This document shows, one piece after another, positions 50,483 through 53,814 of a stretch of 64,000 nucleotides of DNA. The translations under genes and the position numbers were made by a program. The DNA comes from an uncultured Bacteroidales bacterium (GTDB taxonomy: Bacteria > Bacteroidota > Bacteroidia > Bacteroidales > F082), in contig CAMZAM010000002.1 in the NCBI GenBank assembly GCA_947304185.1, positions 1 to 64,000 on the forward strand, written 5' to 3'. The stretch's first letter is position 1. Each line of letters starts with the position of its first letter. The notes below the pieces were generated by a model. That model saw only the letters and a program-made list of their open reading frames with translations. It was not told the DNA's origin and ran no database searches.

Positions 50483-50938
50483 TTATTCTTTTGTTAACCT
50501 CTCAATCAGTTCTTTGTGCTGCGGATAAAGCTGAAGGAGATTTGATTTCTTTGCCAATTCAAAGTTTTCAAAGCTGAAAGCGGGTCCGACAGCACAACCG
50601 ACCAAACAAAATCCCTGCTTCGATGGAATTTCTGCAGCAAACCATTGTTCAGGCATGATGACAACTTGCATTTCATAATCTGTTGAAAGCTTATGTATGC
50701 TGAGTTTGCCATCTTGATCAATCACATAAATATTAAGTGGCTCGCCGTCATGATAATACCAGATTTCAACCACGCCATGAAGTCTGTGGAATGCTGAGAT
50801 ATCGTTGGCGGTAAGCATATAATAAATGGTTGATATATCCTTCTTACCTGTTGTATCATTACCGTAAAGCTGACGATAATAACCACCTTCGGGATGAGGA
50901 AGAAGCCCGAGTTTTTCGATATAGTTGTTTACTGTCAT
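50483..50938 (-). CDS. Cupin-domain protein (DUF985)
   Basis: A 151-residue single-domain cupin of the DUF985 family. HPEGGYYRQLY, TIYYMLTANDISAFHRLHGVVEIWYYHDG (metal-binding His and Glu), VIMPEQWFAAEI and CAVGPAFSFENFELA match the conserved blocks. The metal and reaction are unknown. It overlaps the HEAT-like gene by 4 nt (ATGA). Confidence 0.9.
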   Translation of the reverse strand: MTVNNYIEKLGLLPHPEGGYYRQLYGNDTTGKKDISTIYYMLTANDISAFHRLHGVVEIWYYHDGEPLNIYVIDQDGKLSIHKLSTDYEMQVVIMPEQWFAAEIPSKQGFCLVGCAVGPAFSFENFELAKKSNLLQLYPQHKELIERLTKE

Positions 50939-51462
50939 TTGTATTGATATTTCCCGCTGAGGATTTTTGCTCTTAATCCTTCCACGGCCGGTTTATAATA
51001 AGAGATTTCCATTGCTTCGAGAATCCTTTTAAACTCTTCCTTCAGCTCGGGATAGAAGTTGCACATGCGGTATGCGAGTTTCATGCTGAGAGTTTGACTG
51101 CCGGGCAACTCATCACCAGCAACCATGTGATCCAAGCAAAAGTCAAGAAAGTCTGTCCGCAGGTTATCTTCAGTCAACTCCAAGCGCTCGATTATGTTCA
51201 AAGTCAACCGCCGTACAGATGAATCCTCGGTATGCATGGCTTGGTTTATCAGTTCATCGAGCAAAATCTGAAGCTGGGACAGTTCTATATCAGTAGCCTT
51301 GGTCAATCCCCACATAGCACTTCTGGCTACACGGTAATCTGAATCGAAGGCATATTGTTTAGCAAAGCCAAGGAAATCGCCGCCGGATTTAATCTCATGG
51401 TAAATCTCCTGTGCACCGCCTTCGCTGAACGTTTGTCTCAGTCTATCGCTCGTTATCGCCAT
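50935..51462 (-). CDS. HEAT-repeat-like alpha-helical protein
   Basis: A 175-residue all-helical soluble protein. Pairs of amphipathic helices (DYRVARSAMWGLTKATDIEL, SVRRLTLNIIERLELTED, LSMKLAYRMCNFYPELKEEF) resemble HEAT-like repeats. I do not recognise a named family; similar hypothetical proteins occur in Bacteroides. It is the first gene of the seven-gene accessory operon and follows a promoter at 51480. Confidence 0.7.
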   Translation of the reverse strand: MAITSDRLRQTFSEGGAQEIYHEIKSGGDFLGFAKQYAFDSDYRVARSAMWGLTKATDIELSQLQILLDELINQAMHTEDSSVRRLTLNIIERLELTEDNLRTDFLDFCLDHMVAGDELPGSQTLSMKLAYRMCNFYPELKEEFKRILEAMEISYYKPAVEGLRAKILSGKYQYK

Positions 51463-51551: not shown

Positions 51552-51582
51552 TTTGTTTTTTGCCAAAAAAATATTATCTTTG
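51552..51582 (+). promoter_or_regulatory. Promoter of the restriction-modification leader
   Basis: TTTG (51552-51555), a 19-nt spacer and TATCTTTG (51575-51582) give the best match to the Bacteroidetes consensus in the window. The predicted transcription start is near 51589, about 270 nt before the methyltransferase ATG. Confidence 0.75.
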
Positions 51583-51588
51583 CATCGT

Positions 51589-51808
51589 AAATAAACACGT
51601 AAACGAAGAAACAGAGAAAAACAATTAACATAATGTAAATCATAGCGTTTGCTATTTGTCTATTCGCAGTGAAACGTAGGAAATTTCAAGAATATGCAAA
51701 TAAAGAAAGAAGCAAAAGCAAGCACCCGTTATGCGGGCATCTTGTCTTTCTTTTGGCATATCCTACGGCCACACTGCGAGCAAGTTTGCCCGCAGTTATT
51801 TTTTTATT
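51589..51808 (+). ncRNA. Structured leader RNA with overlapping terminator upstream of the methyltransferase
   Basis: There is no ORF. A small hairpin ATAGC/GCTAT (51642-51655) is followed by a long imperfect hairpin: CGCAGTG (51665-51671) with CACTGCG (51772-51778), CGTAGGA (51675-51681) with TCCTACG (51761-51767), TATGC (51693-51697) with GCATA (51756-51760), AAAGAAAG (51702-51709) with CTTTCTTT (51746-51753), and CAAG...CCCG with CGGG...CTTG at the tip. ACTGCG (51773-51778) can instead pair with CGCAGT (51791-51796), giving a hairpin followed by TTATTTTTTTATT, an intrinsic terminator. The two pairings exclude each other. It could be an attenuator for the RM operon or an independent small RNA. 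Confidence 0.7.
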
Positions 51809-51833
51809 GACCGTAGATAATGAATAGGAAAGA

Positions 51834-51865
51834 TGGCATAACGCACAAATAGCAAGCTTATGCCA
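51834..51865 (+). promoter_or_regulatory. Hairpin enclosing the methyltransferase start codon
   Basis: TGGCATAA (51834-51841) pairs perfectly with TTATGCCA (51858-51865) across a 16-nt loop; the second arm contains the ATG at 51860. If it forms in the mRNA it would hide the start site and limit translation. Confidence 0.5.
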
Positions 51866-52945
51866 AAAGAGATTCAAAAAGACATTATTCTTAAAGGCGA
51901 TTGCCTTGAAATTCTAAAATCGTTTCCAGATAATTCTGTAGATTTAGTTTTTGCCGATCCACCTTACAATATGCAAACAGAAGGTGAGCTGCTAAGAACT
52001 GATGGGTCGTCATTTAATGGTGTTACAGATAAATGGGACAAATTCGAAGATCTGCACGATTACGATGAGTTTTCAAAAAAATGGCTCCAGGAATGTAAAA
52101 GAGTTTTAAAAAAGGACGGTGCAATATGGGTGATTGGTTCTTTCCAGAATATATTCCGTTTAGGATACATCATGCAAGATTTGGGGTTTTGGATACTTAA
52201 CGATGTTATTTGGTCAAAGCCCAATGCAGTACCTAATTTTGGCGGGACTCGTTTTCAAAACTCGCACGAAACATTGATATGGTGCTCAAAAAGCAAAAAT
52301 GCGAAGTATCATTTCAACTACAAAACGATGAAACATATCAATGGTGACAAGCAGATGAAGAGCGTATGGGATATTGGGATTTGCATCGGAAATGAAAGAT
52401 TAAAAGACTCTGATGGAAAGAAGATACATTCTACGCAAAAACCGGAGCAATTGTTGTATAATGTGATATTATCTTCTACCGAAAAAGGAGATTTGGTTTT
52501 GGATCCATTTTTTGGAACTGGGACAACAGGTGTTTTAGCCAAACGTCTTGGTCGCCAATATATCGGAATCGAAAGAGAGGATGCATACATTGAAGCAGCA
52601 ACAAAGAGGCTTAATGGTGTTCAGCTGGATTTAGATACAGATTTGATAAATAATACATATGAAGCCAAACCACCACGTTACTCCATTAAAAAACTTATTG
52701 ATTTGGGTTTCTTGGCCGTTGGTCAATTGTTATATAGCAAAGACAAAAAGTATTCGGCCGAAATCTGTCAAAATGGAAATGTAAAAGTTGGAGATTTTGA
52801 GGCCTCAATACATAAGGCTTCAGCAAAGTTTCTTAATAGAAGCAATAACAATGGTTGGGATTATTTCTGGTGTGAATATAATGGCAATTTTGTTGACATA
52901 AACTCACTTCGCTATTTGGCAGATAAGAAAGGAGGTCTAAAATGA
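51860..52945 (+). CDS. CcrM/HinfI-type DNA adenine methyltransferase (probably GANTC)
   Basis: A 361-residue beta-class N6-adenine methyltransferase. Motif IV comes first (LVFADPPYNMQTEGELLRTD), then VLKKDGAIWVIGSFQNIFR, DLGFWILNDVIWSKPNAVPN, GTRFQNSHETLIWCSKS and HSTQKPEQLLYNVI. The SAM motif I is late (LDPFFGTGTTGVLAKRLGR). A C-terminal RAMA-like domain (about 270-361) completes the CcrM/M.HinfI layout and length. Extended similarity to CcrM makes GANTC the likely site, modified at adenine. Base composition is clearly more AT-rich than neighbours, suggesting acquisition. It overlaps the endonuclease gene by 4 nt (ATGA). Confidence 0.93.
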   Translation: MPKEIQKDIILKGDCLEILKSFPDNSVDLVFADPPYNMQTEGELLRTDGSSFNGVTDKWDKFEDLHDYDEFSKKWLQECKRVLKKDGAIWVIGSFQNIFRLGYIMQDLGFWILNDVIWSKPNAVPNFGGTRFQNSHETLIWCSKSKNAKYHFNYKTMKHINGDKQMKSVWDIGICIGNERLKDSDGKKIHSTQKPEQLLYNVILSSTEKGDLVLDPFFGTGTTGVLAKRLGRQYIGIEREDAYIEAATKRLNGVQLDLDTDLINNTYEAKPPRYSIKKLIDLGFLAVGQLLYSKDKKYSAEICQNGNVKVGDFEASIHKASAKFLNRSNNNGWDYFWCEYNGNFVDINSLRYLADKKGGLK

Positions 52946-53814
52946 TTTTAGATTATGATTATTTTAAAAAGACCTTGAATGAAAAGTTGTTTGAGGATAG
53001 CTATAGCGATTTAATCAAAAAAATAGCAGAATATCCAGAAAGATATATAGGTTTGTTCCGGCCAACAAAACCCAAAACAAAGCTAATTCAAAATATTACT
53101 CAATCTCATGAAATCCGTTTTGGAGACGCTTTGGAATTCATATTTGAAAGGTATTTTGAAGCTTCCGGATTTAAATTACACGACAAACGTTTCTATTCTT
53201 ATGACAATAAAGATTTGAGTATTGACCAACTTTTTAGCAAAGGTGATACGCTTTATATGATAGAACAAAAGGTACGTGATGATCATGATAGTACTAAAAA
53301 GGCGGGACAATTTGATAATTTTGAAAGCAAATATTACGCTTTAACCAGGCGCTATAGTGGAGTTGACATTATTCCGATAATGTGGTTTATAGACGATTCA
53401 CTCACCAAAAACAAGCGATATTATATTAGTAGGATGGATAGTATGGCGTCGGATTACGGTTGCTCGCCAAAACTATATTACGGTGAATCAATGTTTAATA
53501 GATATGGCGGAATTAGTGATTTTGACAGTGATATATGGGATGAAACCATAGAGTATTTGGAGAAATGGAAACAAACTTTGCCAGATATGCCTGAAATAAA
53601 TTTCGATAGTAATGCTGAAACTGTATTTGAAGAAATAAAAGATTTGTCTCCAGTAATCTATCGTAAATTGTTGCAGAATGAAGACGTTATACAACAAATA
53701 TTCCCTATAATCTTTCCGGACAATAAAGTGTTAAACATGCTTTGTGACTATTTTATGTCAAAACGAGAGCATGTTTATCATTCATTAGCAAGATATGTAA
53801 CTATGTGTGTGTAA
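52942..53814 (+). CDS. Type II restriction endonuclease, HinfI-like
   Basis: A 290-residue restriction enzyme partner of the CcrM-type methylase; the pair would cut and protect GANTC. IGLFRPTKPKTKLIQNITQS and HEIRFGDALEFIFERYFEA are typical of the HinfI group. A PD-(D/E)xK-like core is seen in LFSKGDTLYMIEQKVRDDHD (acidic residue, then E-x-K), followed by TKKAGQFDNFESKY. The start overlaps the methylase stop, so expression is coupled. The gene is AT-rich like its partner. Specificity is inferred mainly from the methylase. Confidence 0.82.
   Translation: MILDYDYFKKTLNEKLFEDSYSDLIKKIAEYPERYIGLFRPTKPKTKLIQNITQSHEIRFGDALEFIFERYFEASGFKLHDKRFYSYDNKDLSIDQLFSKGDTLYMIEQKVRDDHDSTKKAGQFDNFESKYYALTRRYSGVDIIPIMWFIDDSLTKNKRYYISRMDSMASDYGCSPKLYYGESMFNRYGGISDFDSDIWDETIEYLEKWKQTLPDMPEINFDSNAETVFEEIKDLSPVIYRKLLQNEDVIQQIFPIIFPDNKVLNMLCDYFMSKREHVYHSLARYVTMCV

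Follow-up and report, generated by a model that had tools for sequence, protein, structure and literature searches.

Transcription attenuators such as trp-type leaders, T-boxes and riboswitch platforms combine a promoter, a long leader, mutually exclusive stems and a U-run with a coding region. For restriction-modification (R-M) operons, two reviews describe control by antisense RNA (EcoRI, Eco29kI), by the methylase, by C-proteins and occasionally by start-site hairpins (PMC3874152, PMC12707154). How R-M systems spare a new host is an open question, the controls treated in these reviews are mostly proteins or antisense RNAs, and a term search of both finds no shared structured leader. Here we describe an R-M locus with such a leader in the window, which means the whole 64,000-nt stretch of DNA that was analysed. 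A comparison with the attenuators shows the same parts, but no leader peptide is noticed by reading of the alignments, there is no known ligand domain, and the genes involved are unrelated R-M, defence and surface genes without a metabolic theme. With the EcoRI and Eco29kI antisense RNAs and the start-site hairpins it would share restraint of R-M expression at the RNA level and occlusion of the start site. In contrast to them, it is a sense-strand structured 5' leader common to many unrelated R-M operons.

Other structured elements resemble the leader in shape or origin. 6S RNA (RF00013) and 6S-Flavo (RF01685) are also about 200 nt long with a long imperfect hairpin, but the leader is multi-copy, tied to a downstream ORF and matched by no such model here. 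The motifs Bacteroidales-1, Flavo-1 and Bacteroid-trp (PMC2864571) are structured RNAs of the same phylum; however, Rfam 15 includes them, and a scan of the window and 58 loci with members finds no above-threshold model over the leader. Integron attC sites are imperfect hairpins of variable sequence adjoining exchangeable genes, but attC is folded DNA behind each cassette gene, whereas the leader precedes its ORF and carries a promoter motif, a U-run and RNA-type wobble. The main texts of three structured-RNA surveys (PMC2864571, PMC8040213, PMC11109978) name no restriction or methylase genes, and structured 5' regions that match nothing in Rfam are reported in a transcriptome study of Flavobacterium (PMC9723704). 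As judged from sequence comparison, the window leader is apparently one copy of a large, uncatalogued family of structured RNA leaders in Bacteroidota, a phylum dominating gut and rumen. This novelty is relative to Rfam 15 and to the main texts of the searched papers, and supplements may hold an earlier, unnamed listing.

The leader of the methylase/endonuclease operon is about 270 nt long (about 51589-51859) and is preceded by a Bacteroidota-type promoter on the + strand (51552-51582), recognised by sequence reading as TTTG (51552-51555)-N19-TATCTTTG (51575-51582). Transcription would start near 51588. A sigma-70 scan with the E. coli consensus does not detect this promoter, which is of the Bacteroidota form. 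The first gene encodes an N6/N4 DNA methyltransferase of 361 aa (51860-52945, + strand; PF01555, E 8e-67) and overlaps by 4 bases with the second, encoding a Type II restriction endonuclease of 290 aa (52942-53814, + strand), which is identified by PADLOC (REase_II, E 4.5e-77) and has no match in Pfam. A 20-nt inverted repeat (90%; 51478-51497/51565-51584) corresponds to two diverging promoter motifs, one for a minus-strand gene (50935-51462) and the other for the leader.

The initial annotation had proposed that this RNA forms either a long hairpin or a terminator, and all the strings it named are in place. CGCAGTG (51665-51671) and CACTGCG (51772-51778) close a 114-nt hairpin through the pairing P1, and CGCAGT (51791-51796) together with a T-run (51799-51805) completes the terminator. 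The two stems are mutually exclusive, as claimed, because ACTGCG (51773-51778) serves both, and the forced folds of the leader are nearly isoenergetic (-52.8 kcal/mol with P1 and -49.7 kcal/mol with the terminator, a gap of about 3 kcal/mol). The 220-nt stretch 51589-51808 folds with -53.4 kcal/mol, compared with -39.8 +/- 4.0 kcal/mol for dinucleotide shuffles (z -3.4; equalled by 0 of 200). The terminator-like hairpin by itself (51773-51805) has a local energy of -12.4 kcal/mol and is followed by TTTTTTT before the coding region, as an intrinsic terminator would be.

Three pairings, all on the + strand, go beyond those annotated initially. P2 joins CGTAGGA (51675-51681), located inside the loop of a small hairpin H1 (TGAAA..TTTCA, 51670-51688), with TCCTACG (51761-51767). 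The strand H3 (TGCGGGC, 51732-51738) is a perfect 7-mer complement of T3 (51788-51794). It belongs to the hairpin H2 (51693-51761), which is found by folding and by covariation and is formed by AAAGAAAGA/TCTTTCTTT (51702-51710/51745-51753) and an apex CCCG/CGGG (51725-51728/51734-51737). The third pairing connects the 5' end with the start-codon region. The 5' element (51642-51660) consists of a small hairpin, ATAGC-GTTT-GCTAT, followed by TTGTC, and its part 51649-51659 is complementary to ACAAATAGCAA (51845-51855), the loop of a start-codon hairpin GGCATAA/TTATGCC (51835-51864) that includes the ATG at 51860. In addition, the strand Y (CCGTAG, 51811-51816, + strand) is complementary to 51763-51768, a pairing that is weak in the window and longer in relatives.

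P1/P2 is preserved through compensatory change, tested over 61 and then 97 relatives. For P1/P2/H2, a plain MAFFT alignment contains 296 double-changed cells versus 79 shuffled; the wider alignment, which had been fitted to the covariance model, is 96.4% paired with 633 double-changed cells, against 152 after shuffling and no more than 119 in the slid controls. The strong covariation within H2 concerns its apical part. The energy of the X:M pairing (P1/P2) is -21.8 with a leader's own partner and -11.5 with the partners of others, the own partner being better in 82 of 85 sequences, and the internal loop between P1 and P2 is conserved as AAA opposite RCCN. H3 forms the 3' side of the apex in H2 and has a second conserved partner in T3, the strand immediately before the U-run: H3:T3 is 92.5% paired with 83 double changes versus 18 shuffled, and 95.6% paired in the wider set. 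The small hairpin of the 5' element differs in sequence among subfamilies and retains its pairing. The variable base of this element (ATTTRTTC) covaries with GAAYAA in H2 (A-T in 24/24, G-C in 25/37), which could also be a mere split of two clades. H1 is conserved and nearly invariant, and thus gives little covariation for or against it. Individual positions of P2 have as many as four kinds of Watson-Crick pair across the family, but none of 673 cells is G-U; the neighbouring helices differ in this. The lack of G-U has no explanation under a plain RNA stem; such strict pairing may be demanded by a protein, a ligand or a third strand.

Of the 52 members of the alignment with a local hairpin at the U-run, 36 use the 3' strand of P1 in it. 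P1, which covaries, is thus a conserved alternative stem excluding the terminator. The terminator pairing T5:T3 is present in most R-M leaders but not in every wider-family member, T3 pairing with H3 instead. As a universal feature T5:T3 was rejected for the wider family; L195, for example, keeps H3:T3 without it. Some R-M leaders (L016, L017, L148) have no clear U-run. A pairing of the middle strand M with the strand past the U-run (M:Y) occurs in a subset (e.g. L044, L050, L054 and L129) and was rejected as a universal switch, being clear in 19 of 85.

Over 71 leaders, pairing of the 5' element (18 nt) with a segment no more than about 50 nt from the start codon reaches -13.4 kcal/mol, compared with -7.9 kcal/mol when shuffled. 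With gene classes assigned by simple sequence motifs and related loci that are not independent, this arm is found at p<=0.05 in 25/31 methylase leaders versus 3/28 leaders of signal-peptide-like genes (Fisher p 5.7e-8). In the leaders of PLD-helicase genes both strands are changed, GCGTTTTTGCTTTTC pairing with GAAAGGCGAAGCGC; compensation between subfamilies thus preserves the arm. In a subset that includes the window, the start-codon region can also fold into a hairpin that takes in the start codon itself; this hairpin was rejected as a universal feature, since it is significant in 18/71. The 5' element ACATATTATAAATCATAGCGTTTGCT is also observed by itself, without the remainder of the leader (L040:860-2745; L020 and L082, both minus strand), where it immediately precedes the start codons of YhcG/DUF1016 nuclease genes and of a RhuM-like neighbour. 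Three consecutive genes in L040 have a 5' element each.

We have little doubt that the RNA acts in cis as a leader in general. With moderate confidence we interpret it as a two-state expression gate, in which attenuation would be combined with start-site control of the methylase/endonuclease mRNA. By comparison of relatives we show, at the level of predicted structure, a long hairpin of P1 and P2 whose internal loop is conserved and whose strands have competing partners, together with a U-run, a promoter motif and a fixed position relative to an ORF start, and in R-M leaders also the arm between the 5' end and the start-codon region. These competing folds should throttle transcription as well as translation. 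During transcription, the 5' strand would capture the middle strand M to form P1/P2, which would block the terminator stem and permit polymerase read-through. Without a stable P1, polymerase would be stopped near 51800 by the ACTGCG/CGCAGT hairpin and the U-run. Transcripts that pass this point would be subject to competition between the 5' element and the start-codon hairpin just ahead of the ATG, a second, translational gate. The leader would keep a risky operon low and conditional. The assignment of the ON fold is a model, for which a ligand, a protein, polymerase speed or another cell state are candidate triggers. The attenuator-like logic put forward in the initial annotation is thus favoured by the cis position on one strand, the promoter motif, the U-run and the conserved competing pairings, but T5:T3 is not family-wide, and the riboswitch and the part in R-M timing that it also raised are putative. 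Likewise, its expectation that homologous leaders would have both pairings holds for P1, which is kept, but not for T5:T3, which is absent in some wider-family members.

A stand-alone small RNA, ending at the U-run near 51805 and acting elsewhere with the gene as a mere neighbour, would also have its own promoter motif, a U-run and a stable fold. The position of the element relative to the gene argues for a leader instead. Among 57 members picked without using the 5' element, an ORF starts 170-270 nt after the element start in 40/57 versus 4/57 in the mirror control, on one strand only (median 207; about 200-225 nt downstream in the family). TAnnTTTG is found at most 140 nt upstream in 49/57 and 60/102 relatives, compared with 6/57 and 13/102 mirror controls, and a U-run in 55/57 and 85/102 relatives, but a promoter motif lies between U-run and ATG in only 1/45. 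An ORF at a fixed distance and the rarity of this motif thus indicate a leader and not a free-standing RNA, and the 5' end pairs with the start-codon region. The 6S-like version of the small RNA, offered as an alternative by the initial annotation, was rejected: the leader is gene-linked and multi-copy, RF00013 and RF01685 have no match at the locus, RF00013 none in this genome, and RF01685 only a sub-threshold match on another contig of it. We therefore consider a free-standing RNA improbable. A static leader with one pseudoknotted fold, which would do no more than stabilise the mRNA or hold translation at a constant low rate, with neither switch nor signal, deserves more weight. Conserved mutually exclusive helices are no proof of switching, as some may be folding intermediates; with such intermediates every helix can be read as part of one complex fold, the start-codon arm by itself could fix a low rate, and T5:T3 is not universal. 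However, no single fold can accommodate both the nucleotides used jointly by P1, H1 and the U-run hairpin and the two conserved partners of H3, and the U-run of 55/57 members would be unnecessary. A static fold appears rather unlikely to us.

The leader is modular. Out of 218 leader pairs with at least 78% identity over at least 120 nt, 147 precede non-homologous first ORFs, and L027, L030 and L103 share, at roughly 97-99%, about 190 nt that run from TAACATA to the U-run; their upstream flanks are unrelated and their genes differ. With near-identical copies before unrelated genes, the leader is moved or recombined separately from the gene behind it. An attC-type mobile DNA or recombination element, whose hairpins act as DNA and behind which genes are swapped, would account for these copies and for the strictly Watson-Crick pairs of P2. 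Recombination between shared leaders or transfer of operon and leader together would also explain the modularity, however, and on the coding strand G-U far exceeds A-C both in H5:H3 (127:9) and in H3:T3 (99:9), which points to RNA. The promoter motif, the U-run and the fixed orientation to the ORF are also at odds with a DNA element, and inspection short of a systematic search reveals no linked integrase; we judge it very improbable. Short complementary stretches are common in A+T-rich leaders, but chance hairpins around an ordinary terminator are already refuted by the compensatory change across the phylum and retain a negligible probability.

Among the 102 first-ORF proteins downstream of the window subclass, a set which is only partly dereplicated and in which families can overlap in one protein, R-M enzymes dominate: N6_N4_Mtase 16, MethyltransfD12 12, N6_Mtase 11, Eco57I 7, HSDR_N_2 5, C5 methylase 4 and ResIII 4. 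The PADLOC methylase models concur, and the second genes include DpnII, HaeIII and ICEA-type endonucleases and specificity subunits. The upstream genes have no R-M dominance except for ten DUF1016/YhcG nucleases. These PDDEXK nuclease genes recur directly upstream of the leader in 10 loci (alignment A2), which suggests clustered defence cassettes. The wider family is also found before PLD-helicases, small HTH proteins, lipoproteins and secreted proteins, and with many members before non-defence genes a defence signal is not implied. With a single recognisable, multi-copy leader in front of dozens of R-M and defence operons that are unrelated, the question of how R-M systems spare a new host becomes open to testing by compensatory mutations and natural replicates, and the presence of the leader could flag candidate defence genes. 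Tentatively, we suggest a Bacteroidota RNA sensor class that may have been captured by unrelated R-M and defence operons as an interchangeable two-layer gate, with the start-codon arm added where mis-expression is dangerous. If this is true, many gut and rumen defence systems would answer one shared RNA-sensed signal.

A covariance model (R1), built from 61 sequences, matches in 73/100 relatives, with up to 20 copies per genome, and sparsely in 15/247 genomes sampled across the phylum; its false-positive rate rests on the 27/100 relatives and 232/247 phylum genomes without a match. A DNA search of the 100 relatives finds partial copies in 28. The 5'-element pattern followed by TGAAA occurs in at least 119 stretches of genome records, nearly all from Bacteroidales; two of these stretches (L047, L065) are false positives from coding sequence, and in two others (L040, L082) the 5' element stands without the remainder. 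A copy is also present in a named isolate, Heminiphilus faecis AM35 (locus L107). No copies of the window subclass are found in IMG/VR with the exact 5' pattern or in phage and plasmid records with blastn. Besides the copy in the window, this genome has two more, which precede a second DNA methylase (G000:C1:200767) and a 122-aa protein (G000:C26:9481). The third copy (L160, G000:C26:9481-9622) is diverged and lies between a protein-kinase-like gene and the 122-aa protein. This protein is of unknown family, an OmpA-like gene comes after it, and L102 has a similar small protein behind its leader. A single methylase gene is preceded by a tandem of leaders (L129:5110-5271 and L129:5558-5731, minus strand) that are about 290 nt apart. 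In a genome of the same order, an rteR sRNA (RF04181, 79.6 bits; L252:535-617) is found near a family member, and thus that copy may sit on a conjugative-transposon-like element.
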